From assembly GCF_900104725.1 (NCBI RefSeq), contig NZ_LT629758.1, positions 124,001 to 188,000 on the forward strand: a stretch of 64,000 nt of DNA, written 5' to 3'. Positions 36,175 through 51,920 of the stretch are shown piece by piece. The notes below the pieces were generated by a model, which made no database searches, was not told where the DNA came from, and saw only the letters and a program-made list of their open reading frames with translations. The stretch comes from Actinoplanes derwentensis. GTDB taxonomy: Bacteria > Actinomycetota > Actinomycetes > Mycobacteriales > Micromonosporaceae. The translations under genes and the position numbers were made by a program. The first letter of the stretch is position 1. Each line of letters begins with the position of its first letter.

Positions 36175-37278
36175 TCAGGGTTGTGGGATCTTGGTCAGGG
36201 CGGTGTCCAGCAGGTTCACCGAGGACGGGAAGTCGATCAACTGGTCCCGGATCAGGCGCAGGCCGGCTCGCAGGGCGTTCGGGGGGACGTCGCGAGCCCG
36301 GAGGACTTCGGTGGTCCACTGGGTGAAGTCGAGGAAGATGGTGGGCTCGCCCACGTAGAGGGCGGCGGCCAGGAAGTCGACCAGGTGGCCCAGGTCCTCG
36401 GCGGTGGATTCGGCCTGGGATTGGTCGTAGTGGTGGGCCGCCGGGTAGGACGCTGCCAGGCGCTGCATCGATGTGGTGATCAGTTCCGGTCGGCGGCGGG
36501 TCAGGTGGGTGTATTCCTCGTCGGCCGACAGGGGCTCGGCCGGGGAGTACAGCGGGCCGGCGACGTAGGGCGGTGGCCAGTCGGTGGCCAGGCGGGTCAC
36601 CGCGTCCTCGCCGGTGGCGGCCCACGCCTGGGCGCCCAGAGGTTGCGCCCAGCGGCCGCCGGGGCCGAAACCGCGGCCGCCGGCGATCACCGGGACTCCG
36701 GCGGCTCGGCAGGCGGTGATGGCGGCGTGCGCGCGGGGGAGCCGGGTCGGGATCATGCAGCTCAGGGCCACCGCGTCGGGGCCGGTCTGGTGCAGGTGGG
36801 TGATCAGGTGGCGGCCGGGGACGCTGGCGCCCAGGTAGTCGACGCGCCAGCCGTCGAGGCGCAGCAACTCGGCGAGCATCCGGGCAGGTAGGCCGTGCCA
36901 TTCGCCGTCCACACAGGCCAGGGTGATCCGGCCGCGCGCGGGTGGGGCGGCGACGGTGGCCGGGGCGCGGGTCCGGCCGGGGAAAGCGGGGGACGCGGGG
37001 GCGGGGGTTCGGGCGGCGATGGTGGCCAAGGCCCGTTCGGCGGCGGCGGTGGCGGCGTGTTCGCGGGCCACCGACCATTCGTTGGCGGCCCACAGCTCGC
37101 CGACGCGGATCTGGGTGGCGCCGATCAGGTCGACGATGAGCCGCTGTGCGGGAACGCCGTCGTCGAGCAGGCCGTCGACGAATGCGGCGGCGCCCTGCTC
37201 GTCGCCGTCGGCGACCAGGGCCAGGTAGTGGCCGGCCACCGCGTCGTCGATGCGGGTGACGACCTGGTGCGCGGTCAC
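36175..37278 (-). CDS. B12-binding protein with photoreceptor-type signature
   Basis: The 367-residue protein starts at GTG 37278, overlapping the stop of the phosphatase gene by four bases (GTGA). Residues 1-90 form a helical B12-binding cap with Trp63 followed after nine residues by Glu73-His74: the W-x9-EH signature of CarH/LitR-type adenosylcobalamin photoreceptors. A B12-binding Rossmann domain follows; His128 in DGEWHG is the likely cobalt ligand, then YLGASVPGRHL and VPVIAGGRGF. Residues from about 250 form a helical domain with YPAAHHYDQSQAES and IFLDFTQWTTEVLRARDVPP, perhaps an RsbR-like sensor. There is no DNA-binding domain. It probably controls the phosphatase in response to light or cobalamin; this is inference. 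Confidence 0.8.
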   Translation of the reverse strand: MTAHQVVTRIDDAVAGHYLALVADGDEQGAAAFVDGLLDDGVPAQRLIVDLIGATQIRVGELWAANEWSVAREHAATAAAERALATIAARTPAPASPAFPGRTRAPATVAAPPARGRITLACVDGEWHGLPARMLAELLRLDGWRVDYLGASVPGRHLITHLHQTGPDAVALSCMIPTRLPRAHAAITACRAAGVPVIAGGRGFGPGGRWAQPLGAQAWAATGEDAVTRLATDWPPPYVAGPLYSPAEPLSADEEYTHLTRRRPELITTSMQRLAASYPAAHHYDQSQAESTAEDLGHLVDFLAAALYVGEPTIFLDFTQWTTEVLRARDVPPNALRAGLRLIRDQLIDFPSSVNLLDTALTKIPQP

Positions 37279-38606
37279 GAGCGGGGTCTCGGCCGCCGGT
37301 CGCTGATCGCGTACGGCGACGGGACGGCCGCTCCGCCGTCGCGCAGGCTCAGCGGGGTGCGGGTGGGGGCGCGGACCGCGAGCATGGCGATGTCGTCGGA
37401 GTGGCCGCCGTGCGACCAGTCGGAGACCAACTGCCGGATGCGTTCGACGGCGGCGGTGCCGGGGATGCCCCGGCAGGAGGAGAGGGCCTGCTGGAGGCGG
37501 GCCTCGCCGTACTGTTCGCCGCCGGTGGGGCCGCCGCGCGCCTCGGTGAGGCCGTCGCTGTAGAGCAGGCACAGTTCGCCGGGGGCGAGTTCGACGGTGG
37601 CCGGACGCACCACGGTGCGGGGCAGCACGCCGATCAGGGTGCCGGTGACCGGCACCTCTTCGACGGTACCGTCGGCGCGCAGGATCAGCGGTGGCGGGTG
37701 GCCGCCGGTGGCCAGGGTGAGCCGGACCCGGCCGTGGTCGATCCGGGTGACCGAGCCGACCACCAGGGTCACGAACCGGGACTGCCGCCCGGACTGGAGC
37801 AGCGCCTGGTTGAGCACATGCAGCATCTGCTCCGGACCGGTCCCGACCAGCCGCAGCGCGCGGAGCGTCTGCCGGATCTTGCCGGTGAGCACCGCCGCTT
37901 CCGGCCCGGTGCCGCACACGTCGCCGAGGGCGATCACGGTGTCGGTGCTGTCGCCGTCGGGGGCGAAGACGTCATAGAAGTCGCCGCCGATCCGCAGCGT
38001 CTCGCGGGCGGCCTGGTAGGAGCCGGTCAGCTCGAAACCGTCGATCTGCGGCAGTTCCGGCGGCAGCAGGTCGGCCTGCAGGACCGCGGTGATCTCGACC
38101 TGCTCCTGGTAGAGGGCGGCGGCCGAGATCGCCGAGCCGGCGCGGGCGGCGAAGACCCGGGCGAGCAACTCGTCCTCGGAGGTGAAGACGTCACCGCGGG
38201 CCAGGATCAGCGCGCCGGCCGGTTCGGCGTTGCCGGGCAGCGGGACGACCAGCAGCGCACCGACCGAGCCGAGCGAGGCCGGCATCAGCCAGCCGGGCAC
38301 CTGTGCCGGGTCGAGCCAGCGGCTCGGGATCGGCGGGAAACCACCGAGGGCCTCGGCCAGGCCCGGCACCTCGGCGAGCAGCGGCTCACGCAGGGTGCCC
38401 TCCTCGACGGCGTGGCCGGGGGCGAGACGGGCCCAGGAACTCTGCCGGCGGTGCACCGGGCGGACGACCACGGCGACATCGGCGAGGTGGGCGACGGCGA
38501 TCTCCAGCGTGGTACGGATGACCCGGCGCACGTTCAGGGAGGCGGACAGCCGCTGACCCGCCTCGACCAGGAACGAGGCCTGGAGCAGGGTGGTGGATGT
38601 CGTCAT
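37275..38606 (-). CDS. SpoIIE/RsbU-type PP2C phosphatase with GAF-like domain
   Basis: The 443-residue protein has a GAF-like N-terminal domain (about 1-175), a short helical linker (LYQEQVEITAVLQADLLPPEL) and a PPM/SpoIIE phosphatase domain with GGDFYDVF, ALGDVCGTGPEAA, ATGGHPPPL, LYSDGLTEARGG and HSDDIAMLAVR, so the metal-binding aspartates are present. Such proteins dephosphorylate anti-sigma antagonists in partner-switching pathways. GGAGGCGAC precedes ATG 38606. It is the first gene of the pair with the B12-binding protein. No antagonist or anti-sigma gene is adjacent; the sigma factor at 21962 is a possible end target. Confidence 0.88.
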   Translation of the reverse strand: MTTSTTLLQASFLVEAGQRLSASLNVRRVIRTTLEIAVAHLADVAVVVRPVHRRQSSWARLAPGHAVEEGTLREPLLAEVPGLAEALGGFPPIPSRWLDPAQVPGWLMPASLGSVGALLVVPLPGNAEPAGALILARGDVFTSEDELLARVFAARAGSAISAAALYQEQVEITAVLQADLLPPELPQIDGFELTGSYQAARETLRIGGDFYDVFAPDGDSTDTVIALGDVCGTGPEAAVLTGKIRQTLRALRLVGTGPEQMLHVLNQALLQSGRQSRFVTLVVGSVTRIDHGRVRLTLATGGHPPPLILRADGTVEEVPVTGTLIGVLPRTVVRPATVELAPGELCLLYSDGLTEARGGPTGGEQYGEARLQQALSSCRGIPGTAAVERIRQLVSDWSHGGHSDDIAMLAVRAPTRTPLSLRDGGAAVPSPYAISDRRPRPRS

Positions 38607-38637: not shown

Positions 38638-39432
38638 TCAGCCTACGTGGTCGGACGGCAGACCACTCAGATCGACCACCACCGGGGCGTGATCGGACGG
38701 TCCCTTTCCCTTGCGGGCGTCCCGGTCGACATACGCGTCGGTGACTGCCGCGGCCACACCGGCGCTCGCGTAGACGAGGTCGATCCGCATCCCCTTGTTC
38801 TGGTGGAACATGCCCGCACGGTAGTCCCAGTAGGTGTACGGATGGTCACCTTTGAGGGCCCGGGCCGGTACGTCGGCGAGCCCGATCCCACGGACGGCGG
38901 CGAGCGCGTCCCGTTCCGGCACGGTGACGTGGGTGGATCCGGCGAACACCGAGACGTCCCAGACGTCGGCGTCGTCCGGGGCCACGTTCCAGTCACCGGC
39001 CACCACCAGCGGGCCGGCGGCCAGGTCGGGGATCAGGGCGTCGCGCAGGGCGGACAGCCAGGCCAGCTTGTACGAATAATGCGGGTCCTCCGGGCTGCGG
39101 CCGTTCGGCACGTACACCGACATGAACCGGATACCGCCGCACACGGCACTGATCGCACGCGCCTCCGGATCGGGGAAACCGGGCTGGCCGGTGAATCCGT
39201 GCCGCACGTCGTCGAGGCCGACCTTGGAGAGCAGGGCGACCCCGTTCCAGCGGCCCTGGCCGTACGCCGCGGTGGTGTACCCGAGGGCGGCGACCTCCTG
39301 CTCCGGGAACGCGTCCCCGGCGACCTTGGTCTCCTGTAGGCACACGACGTCGGGGGCGGTGCCGGTGAGCCAGTCGAGCAGCCGGGGCAGCCGGGCCTTG
39401 ACCGAGTTGACGTTCCAGGTGGCGAAGCGCAT
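38638..39432 (-). CDS. xthA: Exodeoxyribonuclease III
   Basis: The 264-residue protein matches the ExoIII/AP-endonuclease fold: MRFATWNVNSVKARL, VVCLQETK (metal-binding Glu), RFMSVYVPNGR, VVAGDWNVAP, and the final GPSDHAPVVVDL (catalytic Asp-His). It removes 3' blocking groups and cuts at abasic sites in DNA repair. It follows a 28-residue peptide ORF by nine bases, with which it may be co-transcribed. Length is normal. Confidence 0.93.
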   Translation of the reverse strand: MRFATWNVNSVKARLPRLLDWLTGTAPDVVCLQETKVAGDAFPEQEVAALGYTTAAYGQGRWNGVALLSKVGLDDVRHGFTGQPGFPDPEARAISAVCGGIRFMSVYVPNGRSPEDPHYSYKLAWLSALRDALIPDLAAGPLVVAGDWNVAPDDADVWDVSVFAGSTHVTVPERDALAAVRGIGLADVPARALKGDHPYTYWDYRAGMFHQNKGMRIDLVYASAGVAAAVTDAYVDRDARKGKGPSDHAPVVVDLSGLPSDHVG

Positions 39433-39627: not shown

Positions 39628-40254
39628 ATGCGCGTGGAGGTCATGCCGGAGTTGCCGGCCGATCTGCTGGACGAGTCCTGGGAGTTCTACCTGCACTGCT
39701 TCAACGACCTGCGGGTGCTCGCGGCCAACCGGCACCTGCTGTACCGCGAGGAGTTCGACGATCTGATGTCGGACGAGCGGGTGCCCAAGTACGTGGCGCT
39801 CGACGCCGACGGCGGGGTGATCGGCCTCGCGGCGATGACCACCGACCTGGACGCGATCTCGCTGATCTCCCCGGAGTACTTCGAATATCACTGGCCGGAG
39901 CTGTTCCGGGAGAACCGGATCTTCTACGTCAGTTTTGTCGGCGCCGACCGGGGCACCCGCGGGTCGGGGGTGTTCATCGCCCTGCTGCGGCGGATGTACC
40001 AGCCGATCGGCGAGGTGGACGGCAAGGTCGTGGTGGACATCTGTTCCTACAACGAGGACCGGCACTCGCTGCCCCGGATGATCTCGATCATTCTGGGCCG
40101 GGCGGCCGGCCGGGCGCAGCCGACCCGGGTGGACGCCCAGTCGTTCTGGCTGTACGAATTCCCCAAGGCCGGTCTGCCGGTCCGCCGGGAGGAACGGCGC
40201 GGGCTGCAGCGGGACCGGCGGGTCAGCGGTTCTACCGAACGCCGTCGCGTCTGA
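39628..40254 (+). CDS. GNAT-fold-like protein of unknown substrate
   Basis: The 208-residue protein starts behind GAGGAGGCGGATC at ATG 39628, a good ribosome-binding site. It has an acetyltransferase-like order: YVALDADGGVIGLAAMTTD as the central strands, then FYVSFVGADRGTRGSGVFIALLRRM, where the Gly-rich RGTRGSG resembles a coenzyme A loop. The C-terminal 20 residues are very rich in arginine. The substrate is unknown. Its last 23 bases overlap the convergent GGDEF-EAL gene. Confidence 0.6.
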   Translation: MRVEVMPELPADLLDESWEFYLHCFNDLRVLAANRHLLYREEFDDLMSDERVPKYVALDADGGVIGLAAMTTDLDAISLISPEYFEYHWPELFRENRIFYVSFVGADRGTRGSGVFIALLRRMYQPIGEVDGKVVVDICSYNEDRHSLPRMISIILGRAAGRAQPTRVDAQSFWLYEFPKAGLPVRREERRGLQRDRRVSGSTERRRV

Positions 40255-42550
40255 GTTCCACCGCGGCCGGAGCCGGGGCCCGCCGGATCATCTCGCGCCA
40301 GCGTTCGGAGAACTCGGGGGCGAACACCGCGGCCCCCCACAGCCAGCCCTGTCCGTTGATCACACCGACGGCGTGGAGTGCCTCCCGTTGCAGGGCGGTC
40401 TCCACGCCCTCGGCGATCACCGACAGGCCGAGGGCGTGACTCATCGCCACCACCGCCCGGACGATCTCGTCGTCCTCCAGGTTGACACCGAGGCCGGTCA
40501 CGAACGAGCGGTCGATCTTGACGCCGGTGACCGGGAAGCGGCGCAGGTAGCCCAGTGCCGAGAACCCGGTGCCGAAGTCGTCGACAAGCAGTTTCACGCC
40601 CAGTTCGCGGAGCTCGAAGAGCACCCTGGCGGTGACGCTGGAACCGTCCACCATCACCGACTCGGTCATCTCCAGGGCCACACAATGCGCGGGTACGCCG
40701 TACCGGACCATCTCGCCGGACACGATCAGCGGCAGCTCCGGGTCGTTGAGCTGCCGGGGCGACACGTTGATCGACAGGTAGAAGTCGTCGCCGACAGTGC
40801 CCTCCGAGCGCCACACGCCGAGCTGGCGCAGCGCCTCCTTGCGGACCCAGGCGCCGATCACGGTGATCAGCCCGGCGTCCTCGGCGATCGGGATGAACGT
40901 CATCGGCGGGATCGCCCCGCGGTCCGGGTGGTCCCACCGGACCAGTGCCTCGGCGCCGACCGGGATCCCGGTCTCCAGGCGGACGATCGGCTGGTACGCC
41001 ACGTACAGCTGATCCTTCTCCAGGGCCTGCCGCAGCGCCACCTCCAGTTCGATGCGTTCCCGTACCTGGGTGTGCATGCTGGTGTCGAAGATGGTGGACC
41101 GGCCCGGCCCTTCACTCTTGGCCCGGTACATCGCGGTGTCGGCGTCGCGCATCAGCGCCTCGGCGGTGACCGTGGCGTTGGCCGGGTCGGCCTCGGCGTG
41201 CGAGATGCCGATCGACGCGCTGATCACCACGTCGTGGTCGCGGACCGGGAACGGCCTGGCGAAACAGCCGCGGATGTCGTCGACCAGGCGCAGCGCGTCA
41301 CCCTTCTCGCCGACGTACGCGAGCAGGAACTCGTCGCCGCCGACCCGGGCGAGCGGGATCCCGCCCCGGACCGCGGTCCGCAGCCGCCGCCCCACGTCGA
41401 TCACCAGCTGGTCACCGGTGTCGTGGCCCCACGAGTCGTTGACCCATTTGAAGCCGTCCAGGTCGAGCATGTAGACCCAGATCCGGGTGTGGCCCTCCGG
41501 GTCCGGCACGGTGACCAGGCGTTCGATCTCGGCCGACATGGACTGCCGGTTGGGCAGCCCGGTCAGCGGGTCGTGGGTGGCCTGGTGCTCGGAGCGCAAC
41601 TGGGCGGCGACCTGGGCGCGGACCGCGGCGATCGCCCGCAGCAGCAGCAACCCGACGATCACCAGGCCGGCCACCGCGATCAGCATCCGGACCCCGGCGG
41701 ACCGGGCGCCGGCGGTGGGCAGCAGCAGGAACGGCACGGCCAGGGCGGGTACCAGCAGCGCCAGCCGGGGCCAGGACCAGGCCTGGGCGGGTAGCTTGTC
41801 GGGCCGGCTCAGGTCCGCGACGGACGGGTGCAGGGTAGCTACCCCGAGTGCCGTGTACGCCAGCAGGAACGGCACGTTGAGCAGCGGCGACGCATAGATC
41901 TGACCGTCCACGCCGGCGATCGCGTAGGCCAGGTCGCCGACGGCCATCAGCGTCATCATGGTGATGTAGGCGACCATGCTGACCGGCCAGTGTCTGGCGG
42001 TGAAGGTGAGGTTCAGCAGCAGGAGCAGCAGCATCACGTCGAACAGCGGGTACGTGCCCTGGATGATCGAGAGCAGCGGGTCGCGGCCGGGGATGGTGGC
42101 CGCCGGAACGGCCAGCAGCAGGGTGCTGATCAGACCGGCGGCGATGAAGACGATCGCGCAGTCCAGCACCGCGTGCCGGTCCAGACTGCCGCGCCGCCGC
42201 ATCAGGGCCACCAGGAACGTGGCGAGCAGCAGATAACCGCTGAAACTGGCCACGTCGGCGACCAGCGGCCACGGCATCGGCAGTTCGGTGACCGTCGGCC
42301 GGATGATCACGCCGATCAGGAAGAGCAGCGCCGACGCGGCCATCGTCAGCCAGGCGGACCGGGGCTCGGCGCCCCACCGCCGTGGCCCGGTGAAGCAGCC
42401 CACGACGGTGGCGACGCCGAGCAGGACGAACCCGGCGGTGGCGACCGCCGACTCCGGGGCCGCGGCGTAGATCGCGGTGACGACGATGCCGGCAGCGGCG
42501 ATGACCTGCCACAACCGGAGCATGACGGCGGTGGGGAGCACGGAGCGCAC
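40232..42550 (-). CDS. Membrane GGDEF-EAL protein (c-di-GMP turnover)
   Basis: The 772-residue protein has nine or so membrane segments in the first 310 residues (a MASE-like sensor), then a GGDEF domain with DPLTGLPNRQS and an intact RVGGDEF, and an EAL domain with GAEALVRW, EMTESVM, DDFGTGFSALGYL, VKIDRSF and AEGVET. Both catalytic signatures are complete, so it may make and degrade cyclic di-GMP, or use one domain for control. GTG 42550 follows GGGAGG with eight bases between. An ATG at about 42523 is the alternative start. Confidence 0.9.
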   Translation of the reverse strand: MRSVLPTAVMLRLWQVIAAAGIVVTAIYAAAPESAVATAGFVLLGVATVVGCFTGPRRWGAEPRSAWLTMAASALLFLIGVIIRPTVTELPMPWPLVADVASFSGYLLLATFLVALMRRRGSLDRHAVLDCAIVFIAAGLISTLLLAVPAATIPGRDPLLSIIQGTYPLFDVMLLLLLLNLTFTARHWPVSMVAYITMMTLMAVGDLAYAIAGVDGQIYASPLLNVPFLLAYTALGVATLHPSVADLSRPDKLPAQAWSWPRLALLVPALAVPFLLLPTAGARSAGVRMLIAVAGLVIVGLLLLRAIAAVRAQVAAQLRSEHQATHDPLTGLPNRQSMSAEIERLVTVPDPEGHTRIWVYMLDLDGFKWVNDSWGHDTGDQLVIDVGRRLRTAVRGGIPLARVGGDEFLLAYVGEKGDALRLVDDIRGCFARPFPVRDHDVVISASIGISHAEADPANATVTAEALMRDADTAMYRAKSEGPGRSTIFDTSMHTQVRERIELEVALRQALEKDQLYVAYQPIVRLETGIPVGAEALVRWDHPDRGAIPPMTFIPIAEDAGLITVIGAWVRKEALRQLGVWRSEGTVGDDFYLSINVSPRQLNDPELPLIVSGEMVRYGVPAHCVALEMTESVMVDGSSVTARVLFELRELGVKLLVDDFGTGFSALGYLRRFPVTGVKIDRSFVTGLGVNLEDDEIVRAVVAMSHALGLSVIAEGVETALQREALHAVGVINGQGWLWGAAVFAPEFSERWREMIRRAPAPAAVELRRDGVR

Positions 42551-46577: not shown

Positions 46578-46625
46578 ACTGAAGGGGCTGCCGTGATGTC
46601 GCCGGCCGTGACCTACCCCGCGTTG

Positions 46626-46763
46626 ACGGGTTACTCGCCGGTCCGGAAGAGTGACCGGCGAGCGGTAGCGGAGGAACCCGGTGCGAATCCGGGACGGTCC
46701 CGCCACTGTGACCGGGGAAATCGCCCCGGGAGCCAGGAACTCCGGCCGCTCGCGACAACCGAC
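46626..46763 (+). ncRNA. Cobalamin riboswitch
   Basis: The stretch has the core of the B12 riboswitch: a CTCGCCGGTC/GACCGGCGAG stem, the GTAGCGGAGGAACCCGGTGC region, GAATCCGGGACGGTCCC, the B12-box-type GCCACTGTGACCGG, and GGGAGCCAGGAACTCC. It is followed by a GCGGG/CCCGC hairpin (about 46766-46783) next to the ribosome-binding site, so it probably lowers translation of the chelatase gene when cobalamin is plentiful. The boundaries are approximate. Confidence 0.9.
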
Positions 46764-46796
46764 AGCGGGCGTGGACACCCGCCGGAAGGGACCCTG

Positions 46797-49187
46797 GTGA
46801 CGAATCCGTACCCGTTCTCGGCCGTGGTGGGCCTCGACGACCTCCGACTGGCCCTGCTGCTCACCTCGGTCTCCCCGGCCGTCGGCGGTGTCCTGGTCCG
46901 AGGTGAGAAAGGTACCGCCAAGAGCACCGTGGTCCGGGCTCTCGCCGGTCTCCTCCCGCACGTCGAGGTGGTGCACGGCTGCCGGTTCGCCTGCGACCCG
47001 GACGCGCCCGACCCCGGCTGCCCGGACGGCCCGCACACCCTCGGCGGCCCGGCACTGTCCCGTCCGGCCAGCCTCGTCGAACTCCCCGTCGGCGCCACCG
47101 AGGACCGGGTCGTCGGCACTCTCGACCTGCAGCGGGCCCTCAGCGACGGGGTCAAGGCGTACGAGCCCGGCCTACTCGCCGCCGCCCACCGCGGCGTCCT
47201 CTACGTCGACGAGGTGAACCTACTCCCGGACCACCTGGTCGACCTGCTCCTGGACGCCGCCGCGATGGGCCGCGCCCACGTCGAGCGCGACGGCGTCTCG
47301 GTCAAACACGCCGCCCGGTTCCTGCTGGTCGGCACCATGAACCCGGAAGAGGGCGAACCCCGCCCCCAACTCGTCGACCGGTTCGGCCTGGTCGTCACGG
47401 TCGCCGCGCCCCGCGACGCCCGCCAGCGCGCCGAAGTGGTCCGGCGGCGCCTGGCCTACGAGGCGGATCCGGCCGGTTTCGCGGCCCGCTACGTCGCCGA
47501 CGAGCAGGTCTACGAGGCTCGCATCGCCGCCGCCCGCGCCCAGCTCCCGTCGGTGGTGCTGCCTGACGCCGAACTGGACCGGATCGCCCGCGTCTGCCTC
47601 GCCTACGGCGTGGACGGCATGCGCGCCGACATCGTGGTGGCCCGCTGCGCAGTGGCCCTGGCCGCCTGGCACGGCCGCGACCGGGTGACCGCCGACGACG
47701 TCCGCGACGCCGCCCGGCTGGCCCTGCCGCACCGCCGCCGCACCGACCCGCTCGACCCGCCCGGCACCGACGAGGAGAAACTCGACGAGGCCCTGGCCGA
47801 AGCCGAACGCCAGGCCGAAGAAGACCGCCAGGCCGAAGCCGAACGCCAGGCCGAGCAGGATCGCCGCGCCGACGACCCCGACGGCCCGGATCCGGACGCC
47901 GACCCCGACGGTTCCGGCGACGGCCCCGGTGACGACGACCCGGACGGTCCCGGCGGTGGTGGCGGTCCGCGTGACACCGGTGGCCCGTCCGGCACGGACA
48001 ACCCCGGCACAGACCACCCCCTTGCTGGTACGGACCCCAGCCCCGCACCGCCGAGTTCCCCTTCCCCGTCCGACAGCGACGATCAGTCCACCACGCCCTC
48101 GCCGACCATCCCGGCCGCTGGTGTCGCGGTCGCTGCGGGCACCGCCTACCGCACCCGCACGTTCCGCATCGCGGCCCGCGGCGAGGGCGGCCACGCCGGC
48201 CGCCGCTCCCCGGCTTTCGCCCGCCGCGGCCGGGTCGTCGGCAGCCGCCTCCCGCAGGGCAAACTCTCCGGCGCCCCACACCTGTTCGCCACCCTCCGCG
48301 CCGCGCTGGACCGGACGGCCTTGGACCGGACGGCCTCGGACCGGACCACGGACCGGGCCGTGTTGGACCGGACCGCCCTCGACCGGGCCGCGCCCGACGG
48401 CTGGTCGTCGGGTTCAGGCGGCCTCCTCGCCAGTGGTCGTTCCGCTCCGGGTGGTCTTGCTCCGGGCATCATCTCGTCGTCGGATCCCGTGCACCCGTCG
48501 GTCGTCCGGCCCGCCGGTGGCCTCTCGGCTCGTCCGGTCGGTGGGGGCGCTGGGCGGGGGATCCGGGTGCTGCCTCGGGACCTTCGGGAGTCGGTTCATG
48601 TGGGGCGGGAGGCGAACCTCGTGCTCTTCGTGGTGGACGCCTCCGGGTCGATGGCCGCGCGGAAACGCATGACACTTGTCAAGACCGCGGTGCTGTCGCT
48701 GTTGCGGGACGCCTATCAGCGGCGGGACCGGATCGGGATGATCACGTTCCGGGGGAGTGACGCCGACGTCGTGCTGCCGCCCACCTCCAGCCATGAGGTC
48801 GGGGTGCAGCGGCTGGCCGCTCTGCGTACCGGTGGCCGGACCCCGCTCGCCGCCGGTCTGAAAGCCGCCGCCGCGACGATCGCCACCGAACGCCGCCGCG
48901 ACCCGCGCCGCCGCCCGCTGCTGGTGCTGGTCACCGACGGCCGTGCCACCAGCGGACCCGACCCGATGCGCCTGGTCCCGGCCCTGTCCGGAGTGTCGAG
49001 CGTGGTCGTCGACTGCGAGTCCGGCCCGATTCGCCTGGGCCTGGCCCGCAAGCTGGCCGCCGCCTTGAACGCCGAGATCATGCCCCTCGACCGGCTCCAG
49101 GCGGCGACTGTCCTGAGCCGCCGGTCCGGACCGTCCGGTGCCGAGGCTCCGGTTCCGGTCGACCGCGCCTACCGCCGGGCCGCCTGA
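46797..49187 (+). CDS. Cobaltochelatase-type protein: fused AAA+ and VWA subunits
   Basis: The 796-residue protein joins a Mg-chelatase-I-like AAA+ ATPase (GEKGTAKST Walker A near residue 42, VLYVDEVNLL Walker B) to a Mg-chelatase-D-like VWA domain with the DASGSMAARKRM metal site. In B12-making actinobacteria such fusions assist the CobN-type chelatase that inserts cobalt; CobN itself is not in the window. The linker of about 240 residues is rich in Asp, Pro and Gly, has an EAERQAEEDRQAEAERQ helix, and a DRTALDRTASDRTTDRA repeat. The start is GTG 46797 behind GGAAGGGACC; the frame is open further upstream only through the riboswitch. It is under riboswitch control. Confidence 0.85.
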   Translation: MTNPYPFSAVVGLDDLRLALLLTSVSPAVGGVLVRGEKGTAKSTVVRALAGLLPHVEVVHGCRFACDPDAPDPGCPDGPHTLGGPALSRPASLVELPVGATEDRVVGTLDLQRALSDGVKAYEPGLLAAAHRGVLYVDEVNLLPDHLVDLLLDAAAMGRAHVERDGVSVKHAARFLLVGTMNPEEGEPRPQLVDRFGLVVTVAAPRDARQRAEVVRRRLAYEADPAGFAARYVADEQVYEARIAAARAQLPSVVLPDAELDRIARVCLAYGVDGMRADIVVARCAVALAAWHGRDRVTADDVRDAARLALPHRRRTDPLDPPGTDEEKLDEALAEAERQAEEDRQAEAERQAEQDRRADDPDGPDPDADPDGSGDGPGDDDPDGPGGGGGPRDTGGPSGTDNPGTDHPLAGTDPSPAPPSSPSPSDSDDQSTTPSPTIPAAGVAVAAGTAYRTRTFRIAARGEGGHAGRRSPAFARRGRVVGSRLPQGKLSGAPHLFATLRAALDRTALDRTASDRTTDRAVLDRTALDRAAPDGWSSGSGGLLASGRSAPGGLAPGIISSSDPVHPSVVRPAGGLSARPVGGGAGRGIRVLPRDLRESVHVGREANLVLFVVDASGSMAARKRMTLVKTAVLSLLRDAYQRRDRIGMITFRGSDADVVLPPTSSHEVGVQRLAALRTGGRTPLAAGLKAAAATIATERRRDPRRRPLLVLVTDGRATSGPDPMRLVPALSGVSSVVVDCESGPIRLGLARKLAAALNAEIMPLDRLQAATVLSRRSGPSGAEAPVPVDRAYRRAA

Positions 49188-49600
49188 CCCGGTTCGCCAC
49201 CCGCAAACCGATGCCGAACCTGAAGTGGCCGGGTTCGACGAAGCGACCGGACTCGACGAAGTGGCCGGGTTCGACGAAGCGACCGGTGACCGTCGGCCAC
49301 GGGCGACGACGTGGAGCCGGTCTTCGGGCGCCGGTGCGCTGTCGGCCGGTATCTCGATCGGGCCGGGGCTGACCTGTGCCGACGAGGCCCGACCGGGGCC
49401 GCCCGGGGTGGGGCTGGGTGTGGGCGGGACCGGCATGCCGGTGAGTGGCGCCGGGGAGTGCGTGGCGGGAGCCGCGCCGAGCCCGGTTGCCGGACCCGGC
49501 GGGGCATGCCGGCTTCGGCGGGACCGGAACGGCGTACCGGAAACGGGTTGGAAAGCAGTGACCGTGAGCGGGAAGCCCGCGGTGAGAATGGGGAGGAAAC
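49188..49600. other. Long gap before cobO, no gene seen
   Basis: These 413 bp lie between the chelatase and cobO genes on the same strand. They begin with an 18-bp tandem repeat and continue GC-rich with several small hairpins. I looked for a second cobalamin riboswitch and did not find its conserved core. A plus-strand frame covering it has no start signal. GGGAGGAAAC at the end is the cobO ribosome-binding site. Confidence 0.4.
49222..49293. repeat. 18-bp tandem repeat, four copies
   Basis: GAAGTGGCCGGGTTCGAC and GAAGCGACCGGACTCGAC alternate, giving four 18-bp units (49222, 49240, 49258, 49276), the last diverging after GAAGCGACCGG. Units 1 and 3 are identical. Confidence 0.75.
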
Positions 49601-50200
49601 GTGCCGCAAGGGAAAGTCACCAGTGTGCCGGATGACGGGCTGACGACGCGGCAGCGGCGGCGGCAGGCGGTGTTCGCGGTGCATACCGGGCCGGGCAAGG
49701 GGAAGTCGACGGCCGCGTTCGGAATGGCGTTGCGGGCCTGGAGTGCTGGTTGGCCGGTGGGGGTGTTCCAGTTCGTCAAGTCGGAGAAGTGGAAGGTGGG
49801 GGAGGAGACCGCGCTCAAGGCACTCGGTGAGCACGGGCCCACTCCGGTGACCTGGCACAAGATGGGGGAGGGCTGGTCCTGGATTCAGCGGGCCGGTTCG
49901 GAGCGGGATCACGCCGCGGAAGCCGCTGAGGGGTGGGCGCAGATCAAGCGGGATCTGGCCGCTGAGACGCACAAGTTCTACGTGCTGGACGAGTTCACCT
50001 ATCCGATGAAATGGGGCTGGGTGGACGTCGCCGACGTGGTGGAGACGCTGCGGGACCGGCCGGGCATCCAGCATGTGGTGATCACCGGGCGGGACGCGCA
50101 CGCGGATCTGATCGCGGCGGCGGATCTGGTCACCGAGATGACGAAGGTGAAGCATCCGATGGACGCGGGCCGTAAAGGGCAGCAGGGAATCGAATGGTGA
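49601..50200 (+). CDS. cobO: Cob(I)yrinic acid a,c-diamide adenosyltransferase
   Basis: The 199-residue protein has the CobO/BtuR P-loop VHTGPGKGKSTAAFGMALRA, the VGVFQFVKS strand, FYVLDEFTYPMKWGW and VVITGRDAH, the usual order for the ATP-binding adenosyltransferase. It attaches the adenosyl group to the corrin cobalt. GTG 49601 follows GGGAGGAAAC. Its stop overlaps the start of cbiA by seven bases. The start codon of the adenosyl-cobalamin-consuming pathway agrees with the B12-binding protein elsewhere in the window. Confidence 0.93.
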   Translation: MPQGKVTSVPDDGLTTRQRRRQAVFAVHTGPGKGKSTAAFGMALRAWSAGWPVGVFQFVKSEKWKVGEETALKALGEHGPTPVTWHKMGEGWSWIQRAGSERDHAAEAAEGWAQIKRDLAAETHKFYVLDEFTYPMKWGWVDVADVVETLRDRPGIQHVVITGRDAHADLIAAADLVTEMTKVKHPMDAGRKGQQGIEW

Positions 50201-51534
50201 ATCGGATCGTCATCACGGCCCCGGCCAGCGGGCACGGCAAGACCACGGTGGCGACGGGGCTGCTGGCGGCGTTCGCCCGGCGCGGGCTGCGGGTGGCGCC
50301 GTTCAAAGTGGGGCCGGACTACATCGATCCGGGATATCACGCGCTGGCCGCGGGCCGGCCGGGGCGCAACCTGGATCCGGTGATGGTCGGTGAGTCGCTG
50401 GTCGGGCCGTTGTTCGCGCACGGTTCGCAAGGTGCCGATCTGGCGATCGTCGAAGGGGTGATGGGGCTCTACGACGGGCGGACCGGCGCCGGTGATCAAG
50501 GGTCGACGGCGCAGGTCGCGGAGTTGCTCGGCGCGCCGGTGATCATGGTGGTGGACGCGGCTGCGCAAGGGCGGTCGATCGCCGCCCTGGTGCACGGGTT
50601 CCGGAGTTTCGGGTCGGTGCGGCTGGCGGGTGTGATCCTGAACCGGGTCGGTTCGGACCGGCACGAGCAGATCCTGCGGGACGCCTGTGAAGAAGTCGGC
50701 ACGCCGGTGCTGGGTGCGCTGCGGCGGGCGGACGCGGTCGCCGCCCCGTCCCGGCATCTGGGGCTGGTTCCGGCGGCCGAGCGACGGGCCGAGGCGCTGG
50801 CGTCGGTGGAGGCGATGGCTGATCTGATCGCCGCGTCGGTGGATCTGGACGCGGTGGCGGCGGTGGCCCGGTCGGCGGCTCCGTTGCCGTTGCCGGCGTG
50901 GGACCCGGTCACTGCGGAGCCGATCAAGAACGGTCCGGTTGTCGCGGTCGCCGGTGGTCCGGCTTTCACCTTCTCGTACGCCGAGACCACCGAACTGCTG
51001 GCCGGGGCCGGTGCGACGGTGGTGCCGTTCGACCCGTTGCACGACGAGAAGCTGCCGGACGGCACCCGCGCGATCGTGGTCGGCGGCGGTTTCCCGGAGG
51101 TGTACGCGAGTGCCCTCTCCGCCAACGAGCCGCTGCGGACGGCGGTCAAGGAGTTCGGCGGCGTGATCGCGGCCGAATGCGCGGGCCTGCTGTGGCTGTG
51201 CGAGTCCCTGGACGGCGCGCCGATGTGCGGGGTCCTGGAGGCGGAGGCGGTGATGTCGCCGACGCTGACGCTCGGTTACCGGGACGCGGTGGCGCTGTCG
51301 GACAGTCCACTGGGCCCGGCGGGCACCCGGGTGACCGGTCACGAGTTCCACCGGACGGTGGTGCATCCGCGGTCGGGTCTGCTGCTGTCGCCGGCGGGCG
51401 GGGCGGCCTGGGCGTGGCGGGGTGCCGATCCGGAGGGGTTCGCGTCGGCCCGGCTGCACGCGTCGTACCTGCATCTGCACTGGGCGGGCGCACCTCAGCT
51501 GGCCCGGTCGCTGGTCGCCGCTGCCGCGCGGTGA
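50194..51534 (+). CDS. cbiA: Cobyrinate a,c-diamide synthase
   Basis: The 446-residue protein has an N-terminal P-loop synthetase domain (IVITAPASGHGKTTVATGLL, then FKVGPDYIDPGYH and VEGVMGLYDG) and a C-terminal type I glutamine amidotransferase domain (VVGGGFPEVYASAL, nucleophile Cys in AAECAGLLWL, late GHEFHRT). It amidates two side chains of cobyrinate with glutamine and ATP. It overlaps cobO by seven bases and the next gene by four, so the three are translated as one operon. Confidence 0.94.
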   Translation: MVNRIVITAPASGHGKTTVATGLLAAFARRGLRVAPFKVGPDYIDPGYHALAAGRPGRNLDPVMVGESLVGPLFAHGSQGADLAIVEGVMGLYDGRTGAGDQGSTAQVAELLGAPVIMVVDAAAQGRSIAALVHGFRSFGSVRLAGVILNRVGSDRHEQILRDACEEVGTPVLGALRRADAVAAPSRHLGLVPAAERRAEALASVEAMADLIAASVDLDAVAAVARSAAPLPLPAWDPVTAEPIKNGPVVAVAGGPAFTFSYAETTELLAGAGATVVPFDPLHDEKLPDGTRAIVVGGGFPEVYASALSANEPLRTAVKEFGGVIAAECAGLLWLCESLDGAPMCGVLEAEAVMSPTLTLGYRDAVALSDSPLGPAGTRVTGHEFHRTVVHPRSGLLLSPAGGAAWAWRGADPEGFASARLHASYLHLHWAGAPQLARSLVAAAAR

Positions 51535-51920
51535 TCGTTCTGGGTCTCGGGGCCCGCAGCGGTGCCGATCTGGCCGGCCCGGTGCGGCTGGCGCTGGCCG
51601 CGGCGGGCCTGCTCCCGGATGACGTGGGTGTGCTGGCCACGCTGGACCGGCGGGCCGCCGAGGACCGGGTGCTGGCGCTGGCACGCGAGCACGACTGGCG
51701 GATCGCCGCGTTCACCGCGCACGAGCTGGCCGCCTGCCCGGTGCCGAACCCGGGACGGGCGGCGGCCGTGGCGGTCGGCACGCCGAGCGTGGCGGAGGCG
51801 GCGGCCCTGCTGGCCGCCGGTCCGGGCGCCGAGCTGATCATGCCGAAGCGCAGCCGGGCGGGGGTGACCGTGGCGCTGGCTGTTATACAGCGTCCCGGTT
51901 TCGTTCAGTACATTTGCTGA
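51531..51920 (+). CDS. CobE/CbiG C-terminal-like cobalamin synthesis protein
   Basis: The 129-residue product starts at GTG 51531 overlapping the cbiA stop by four bases. It reads VIVLGLGARSGADLAGPVRL, then AAFTAHELAACPVPNPGRAA and later GTPSVAEAAALL and LIMPKRSRAGVTVALA, the pattern of CobE and the C-terminal domain of CbiG. The family takes part in corrin ring contraction or acetaldehyde release. It is a standalone domain. The cobalamin operon appears to end here; a weak GCTGA/TCAGC stem overlaps its stop codon. Confidence 0.8.
   Translation: MIVLGLGARSGADLAGPVRLALAAAGLLPDDVGVLATLDRRAAEDRVLALAREHDWRIAAFTAHELAACPVPNPGRAAAVAVGTPSVAEAAALLAAGPGAELIMPKRSRAGVTVALAVIQRPGFVQYIC

Follow-up and report, generated by a model that had tools for sequence, protein, structure and literature searches.

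A predicted light sensor gene overlapping a phosphatase gene

What does a cobalamin-binding protein respond to, and what does it control, when its gene overlaps that of a SpoIIE/RsbU-type phosphatase? The question is raised by two genes in a stretch of 64,000 nucleotides from Actinoplanes derwentensis (GCF_900104725.1, contig NZ_LT629758.1, positions 124,001 to 188,000), which we call the window and whose own numbering is used for all coordinates below. We consider it likely that the pair encodes a standalone photocobilin whose light-driven change controls the co-translated phosphatase and hence a STAS/anti-sigma switch. The pair is laid out as follows:

36175..37278, minus strand, photocobilin gene (367 residues, GTG start; closest solved structures 8j2x/8j2w and 8j2y)
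37275..38606, minus strand, SpoIIE/RsbU-type PP2C phosphatase gene (443 residues; Pfam SpoIIE, E 1e-44)
37275..37278, minus strand, GTGA overlap of the phosphatase stop with the photocobilin start (4 bp common to both genes)

An initial annotation, made from the DNA letters, had described two minus-strand open reading frames (ORFs) sharing the four bases GTGA, and the ORF coordinates bear this out. The GTG start of the photocobilin gene is a choice: its frame continues in the 5' direction and could encode 580 residues (36175-37917). A database protein, P0006, is identical to the window photocobilin over its length and likewise has 367 residues.

Domains and family of the 367-residue protein

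To place the protein, we compared it with domain families and with solved structures. Pfam recognised a cap domain (B12-binding_2, residues 18-86) and a B12-binding domain (117-230), together with a weak Phycobilisome match at residues 257-348 (E 0.13). The AlphaFold model, with a mean pLDDT (predicted local distance difference test) of 89.9, contained the cap, the Rossmann domain and an additional helix bundle at residues 251-363. In a sequence search against solved structures, the best matches were SasPcob, the photocobilin of Saccharothrix syringae (8j2x/8j2w, E 1.4e-81, query residues 17-358), and AbPcob (8j2y, E 1.4e-48); when the model was submitted to Foldseek, photocobilin structures also ranked first (best E 2.7e-25). 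Three domains were delimited, with the evidence given in brackets:

37009..37245, minus strand, four-helix cap, residues 12-90, which holds W63 and E73-H74 (Pfam B12-binding_2, model helices, conservation)
36583..36930, minus strand, Rossmann B12-binding domain, residues 117-232, with E126-x-H128 (cobalt ligand position) and H157 (Pfam, mapping to SasPcob)
36190..36528, minus strand, C-terminal globin (photoglobin) bilin-binding domain, residues 251-363, with D295 and W321 (model helices, crystal-structure match)

Sequence and predicted fold both place the protein among the photocobilins, as a new member of this known family. The initial annotation had connected its cap motif with light sensors of the CarH/LitR group. 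This was right as to the type, a B12-based light sensor, but the C-terminal globin/bilin domain, about the last 115 residues, was absent from that account, and it is this additional bilin-binding domain that sets the protein, as a photocobilin, apart from a bare CarH-like sensor. The Pfam scan of the 367 residues found no MerR-type or any other DNA-binding domain, in agreement with what had been read from the letters, and the score with NCBIfam TransRegCarH was 28.1 bits against a cut-off of 400. Because a DNA-binding domain and the bis-His ligand are both absent and the best matches are photocobilins, the CarH-like reading was dropped.

In SasPcob, according to the accessible part of Zhang et al. 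2024 (PMC10979010), the third domain binds biliverdin, and illumination with green or red light then cleaves the Co-C bond. The second, bilin-binding domain of the window protein would therefore lead us to expect that red light acts on it besides green (PMC10979010, same part).

No second photocobilin was found in the source genome, where the sole other match was weak (E 7.1e-4, residues 110-178). In a database search scored with the photocobilin alone, at least 853 proteins matched at E 1e-20 among 8000 scored candidates. The public annotation of P0011, P0013 and many more among the matches listed reads 'methanogenic corrinoid protein MtbC1', which is at odds with their photocobilin match. 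We also noticed P0005, a protein of 831 residues in which a B12-binding domain is combined with response-regulator, winged-helix and PAS domains.

Conserved chromophore and light-response residues

Residue conservation was determined in an alignment of 55 proteins, namely those of 54 related loci (described below) and of the window. Residues W63, E73, H74, H128, H157, D295 and W321 of the window protein correspond to W61, E71, H72, H108, H137, D270 and W296 of SasPcob. The first four were each kept in 54 of the 55 proteins, the exception being a gap in the truncated L055. H157 was kept in 52 (gap in L055, Arg in L049 and L052), D295 in 53 (Arg in L046, gap in L051) and W321 also in 53 (Ala in L053, gap in L051). 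Read from this alignment, the conservation of the Trp, the Glu, the His and the cobalt His is not due to chance. Trp63-x9-Glu73-His74 had been placed in the helical cap and His128, within DGEWHG, at the cobalt-ligand position, and both placements held: W63 lies on the model helix 44-64 and E73/H74 on the next one, 70-90, inside the Pfam cap and with the conservation just given, and H128 aligns with SasPcob H108. A light-response signature of four motifs, GxxW, EH, GxxH and GxxxP, is described in the accessible part of PMC11796333; all four are present, read by eye, as G60-W63, E73-H74, G125-H128 and G150-P154.

At the biliverdin-pocket position 295 the window protein has Asp, like the strong biliverdin binder SasPcob and unlike AbPcob, a weak binder in which His replaces this Asp (PMC10979010, accessible part). 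Three residues before it, position 292 is Thr rather than Cys (Thr in 52 of 55), so that, as in SasPcob, a covalent bilin link would not be expected there. The CXQD motif, which Rockwell-type surveys assign to photoglobins (PMC10151467, accessible part), is absent from the window photocobilin.

The His that follows the cap Trp in TtCarH (His132, bis-His light state) is missing from the window protein, which has Ala64. Ala was found at this position in 53 of the 55 proteins, with Gln in L049 and a gap in L055. The initial annotation had proposed that the Ala could alter the photochemistry. A difference from CarH is indeed there, but one of this kind has already been described in the photocobilin family: SasPcob has Gln after the cap Trp and photoconverts to a water-ligated monomer with no bis-His ligation (PMC10979010, accessible part). 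Ala64, the rule in the clade, is therefore compatible with a light response, and the light chemistry probably follows SasPcob and not CarH.

The phosphatase

In the 443-residue protein, Pfam placed SpoIIE at residues 221-413, while its GAF match (E 0.0036) was below the cut-off. In the structural model (mean pLDDT 83.8), the PP2C domain is preceded by a GAF-like domain and a long helix. The best Foldseek match was 3ke6, the RsbU domain of Rv1364c, and RssB and SpoIIE were also found; a GAF domain, that of PDE5A (3lfv), appeared at rank 50. The two parts are:

37371..38033, minus strand, PP2C catalytic domain, residues 192-412 (model strands and helices, Foldseek)
38073..38546, minus strand, GAF-like N-terminal domain and long linker helix, residues 21-178 (sub-threshold Pfam GAF, model, Foldseek)

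D209, D229, D351 and D404 were kept in all 55 phosphatases compared, and we take them to be the metal-binding Asp residues of PP2C enzymes. The earlier label of a GAF/PP2C phosphatase is thus well founded for PP2C, by the SpoIIE match, the kept Asp residues and the fold, whereas its GAF part is weak by Pfam and recovered by fold at the low rank mentioned. In some Streptomyces and Nonomuraea loci (L033, L039, L043) the phosphatase frame extends upstream by about 100 residues which appear PAS-like by eye; Pfam did not call PAS in the two extensions tested, those of L033 and L043.

Pairing of the two genes in other genomes

We examined the surroundings of 55 related loci from named genomes, gathered with the window protein's own words and belonging to Actinoplanes, Paractinoplanes, Streptomyces, Sphaerisporangium, Nonomuraea, Catenuloplanes, Hamadaea, Nocardiopsis and other genera. 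In all 55, a SpoIIE match on the same strand ended no more than 0.45 kb upstream of the photocobilin gene; in L054 this SpoIIE was frayed, with a 61-residue match remaining and no intact ORF found. The 4-bp overlap recurred in 38 of the 55 gene pairs; for this count the photocobilin start was placed at whichever start codon lay closest to the stop of the phosphatase gene, a procedure that favours short overlaps. Because most TGA stops allow such a start when the frame is right, the count speaks for a kept frame and closeness more than for a proven start. Chance adjacency should be rare, because the source genome holds 22 SpoIIE matches (21 above the cut-off) in 10.65 Mb.

Since the set of 55 loci is biased by the words of the window protein, we drew a sample of 197 genomes from the class of the source organism (Actinomycetes). 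Thirty of them matched at E 1e-20, with 34 matches in total; besides the source's own, 31 loci were examined, the two remaining matches being second tandem copies inside those loci. SpoIIE lay within 0.3 kb upstream in 26 of the 31 loci, spread over seven families. In a further sample of 396 genomes from the phylum, 43 of which had any match and in which flanks of up to 1.5 kb were inspected, SpoIIE was found beside all 10 class loci examined and beside none of the 11 full-length relatives examined from outside the class (14 were found). Given 26 of 31 and 10 of 10 inside the class against 0 of 11 outside, the pairing of SpoIIE with photocobilin looks like a trait of the class. W-x9-EH proteins do occur beside SpoIIE genes in the related loci, a pairing that the initial annotation had suggested looking for. 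One genome outside the class (L082) encodes a B12-binding protein of at most 226 residues that has no globin domain, with a SpoIIE gene directly after it.

STAS genes, tandem copies and fused proteins

A STAS gene lies directly downstream of the photocobilin gene in 21 of the 55 related loci, in 8 of the 10 class loci examined from the phylum sample and in 15 of the 31 loci of the class sample, in two of the latter behind a second photocobilin copy; two further loci of the class sample carry a STAS gene upstream on the same strand. The STAS identity was confirmed by Pfam for three examples. In at least 10 loci (L027, L032, L033, L035, L037, L039, L045, L048, L051 and L055) the STAS gene, as called, and the end of the photocobilin gene have four bases in common. 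Across the operon STAS proteins compared, the phosphorylatable Ser was kept in 28 of 29, the exception being Ala in L029. A partner-switching output had been predicted for the pair, and this inference is supported, because SpoIIE is the usual neighbour in the class and STAS follows in many relatives. A HATPase gene family, a candidate for the anti-sigma kinase (HATPase_c_2 type) of such a module, was present in 5 of the 55 loci (the L030 member was checked by Pfam), anywhere in the flanks, and no member was found in the compared window stretch. A MarR-type gene family, one member of which was checked by Pfam, follows in up to 15 loci.

In L136 and L137 (genomes G409 and G522, of one family) two photocobilin genes stand in tandem between SpoIIE and STAS, an arrangement that may represent a two-sensor or heterodimer version.

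Fused proteins were searched for with the window's two proteins joined and the photocobilin part alone scored, among the best 8000 candidates. At least three were obtained, including the single chains P0003 and P0004 and one protein with response-regulator and PAS domains. The single-chain fusions are a SpoIIE-photocobilin protein of 908 residues and a photocobilin-STAS protein of 487 residues; in the STAS part of the latter, P0004, the phosphoacceptor position is occupied by Ala. The joints of both proteins, judged by eye, fall at the usual gene borders. We did not accept these fusions as proof of contact, since one base change at a gene border would have the same outcome.

Proposed mechanism, cofactor supply and alternative explanations

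In the mechanism that we propose, the protein would form a head-to-tail dimer in the dark, with adenosylcobalamin (AdoCbl) bound between the cap and Rossmann domains and the C-terminal globin occupied by biliverdin. Green light, through cobalamin, or red light, through biliverdin, would break the Co-C bond; the adenosyl group would leave, the helix with E73/H74 would shift and the dimer would open, the light state being left with water-ligated cobalt. The opened photocobilin would then alter its direct contact with the co-translated GAF-PP2C phosphatase, whose activity on a phosphorylated STAS anti-anti-sigma protein would be switched, and the change in STAS dephosphorylation would release or sequester an anti-sigma factor. 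The chromophores and the light state would be as in SasPcob, by analogy with which we assign them; the direct contact, the direction of the effect and the STAS target in A. derwentensis are what we infer. For the wider group we lean slightly towards the view that SpoIIE, photocobilin and STAS make up one translationally coupled light-to-sigma-factor switch across many actinomycetes, in which cobalamin/biliverdin photochemistry would set anti-anti-sigma phosphorylation and of which the tandem pair may be a two-sensor version.

Cofactor supply in the source organism is plausible from its gene content. Riboswitch-controlled B12 genes (46626-51920) had been noted near the pair; the riboswitch was confirmed as RF00174, and CobO and other B12 genes are present:

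46611..46764, plus strand, cobalamin riboswitch RF00174 (46.9 bits, gathering threshold 31.5)
49601..50200, plus strand, CobO/BtuR ATP:corrinoid adenosyltransferase, which makes the adenosyl form (Pfam PF02572, E 5.1e-59)

The source genome also has one heme oxygenase.

Several observations weigh against a light-driven switch of the phosphatase. No SpoIIE was found at five of the 31 loci of the class sample, one of them at a contig edge, nor beside the full-length relatives outside the class. A STAS gene is not beside the pair in the window or in the Actinoplanes and Paractinoplanes loci, and 34 of the 55 related loci are without one; the source genome has 29 STAS matches, many of them paralogs, among which no clear ortholog of the operon-type STAS was found. 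The fused proteins give weak support, because each could have arisen by one base change at a gene border, whether natural or an error, that shifts the reading frame. According to the accessible part of PMC10442372, TtCarH H132A is mostly tetrameric in the light, contrary to an earlier report, which is a caution for proteins with Ala at this position. Finally, the occurrence of heme oxygenase does not track that of photocobilins. By hand count, among the class members of the phylum sample it was present in 8 of 11 genomes with a photocobilin and in 15 of 27 lacking one; of the genomes outside the class that encode full-length relatives, several of which are incomplete, 1 of 11 had it.

The locus could also work in other ways. 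The protein could sense cobalamin status, the binding or loss of AdoCbl with the nutrient or redox state switching the phosphatase and light being incidental. The pair lies about 8 kb from the cobalamin riboswitch and the B12 genes with CobO, and the cyclase activity of AbDPcob drops on AdoCbl binding already in the dark (PMC10979010, accessible part). A pure cobalamin sensor would, however, have no need of the bilin pocket, of which D295 and W321 are each so widely kept (53 of 55), and the nearest characterised relative is light-responsive; we regard a status sensor as unlikely. It also seems quite improbable that the photocobilin acts on another target, for example a STAS protein or a cyclase, and that the two genes are merely co-expressed: the recurrence of the 4-bp overlap (38 of 55 pairs) and the spread of the pairing over seven families exceed what co-expression needs. 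Such a target would nevertheless agree with the in vitro finding that SasPcob acts on a cyclase in trans (PMC10979010, accessible part), with the lack of SpoIIE beside all 11 full-length photocobilins examined outside the class, with the existence of a photocobilin-STAS single protein and with the GGDEF-EAL protein encoded nearby (40232-42550).

A member of the family that has kept the fold and lost its light response, through Ala64 and little bilin, would fit the behaviour of TtCarH H132A, which mostly fails to dissociate in the light (PMC10442372, accessible part), as well as the patchy occurrence of heme oxygenase among photocobilin genomes. Against this, SasPcob with Gln at that position still photoconverts and monomerises (PMC10979010, accessible part), the source genome has a heme oxygenase and all four light-response motifs are kept, and we consider a non-photoactive or bilin-free protein very improbable. 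Control of the co-translated phosphatase by a light-responsive photocobilin is the explanation that we prefer.

Neighbouring genes

Upstream of the phosphatase gene lies a gene that is syntenic in relatives:

38638..39432, minus strand, exonuclease III-like gene (Pfam Exo_endo_phos, E 5.6e-31), 31 bp upstream of the phosphatase gene

An exonuclease III-like gene was found on the same strand, up to 2.5 kb upstream, in 26 of 56 sequences (the 55 loci and the window). When phosphatase starts were chosen by homology, the gap between the two genes was below 200 bp in just 2 of the 26, compared with 31 bp in the window; with longest-ORF starts it was 9-108 bp in all 26, a measure biased toward short gaps. 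Membership of this gene in the operon as a third gene is uncertain. Farther upstream, on the same strand, the gene for the GGDEF-EAL protein (40232-42550) belongs to a family common to 28 compared sequences.

Comparison with known systems

The closest known system is that of SasPcob (8J2W/8J2X), for which a link to SpoIIE and STAS is already proposed: in the accessible part of Zhang et al. 2024 (PMC10979010), neighbourhood/STRING analysis named STAS, SpoIIE and PP2C proteins as potential interaction partners of SasPcob, and the function of standalone photocobilins was described as less clear. In the literature searched, only that paper holds B12-binding and SpoIIE together in a light or photoreceptor context. 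The window pair is a new member with a clearer circuit, to which we add the gene overlap, counts of how widely it is conserved, the STAS gene as a third member together with its Ser, and the tandem arrangement. A 2022 photoglobin paper is said to report gene neighbourhoods of such proteins, and some of the operon results given here may have appeared in it. The function at issue would be the control of a sigma-factor switch by green and red light in soil actinomycetes. As the pairing with a phosphatase is conserved, often together with a likely STAS substrate, a specific function becomes directly testable, and the photocobilin-phosphatase pair would offer optogenetics a natural two-colour enzyme switch.

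SasPcob and the window protein have the same domain order and 153 identical residues of 318 aligned; both are standalone, with the same cobalamin residues, the same biliverdin Asp and Trp and no Cys for a covalent bilin. They differ in that the window protein has Ala and not Gln after the cap Trp and a longer linker between cap and Rossmann domain; moreover, the SpoIIE overlap is seen directly at the window, whereas the link of SasPcob comes from a predicted interaction network (PMC10979010, accessible part). AbDPcob, a photocobilin-diguanylate cyclase (8J2Y), has the cap, Rossmann and globin domains as well (124 of 323 aligned residues identical), but it is fused to its cyclase and has His for the biliverdin Asp, while the output of the window protein is a separate phosphatase. 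With CarH/LitR the window protein has in common the W-x9-EH cap motif and the ExH cobalt ligand; it differs in having no MerR DNA-binding domain and no His for bis-His ligation, and in its additional bilin globin domain. Phosphatases of the RsbU/RsbP/SpoIIE type receive their input through RsbT or a built-in sensor domain. The window phosphatase resembles them in its PP2C domain with the kept Asp residues, in its N-terminal sensory domain and in the STAS partner gene present in many relatives, but its proposed light input would come from a separate, translationally coupled B12/bilin protein.

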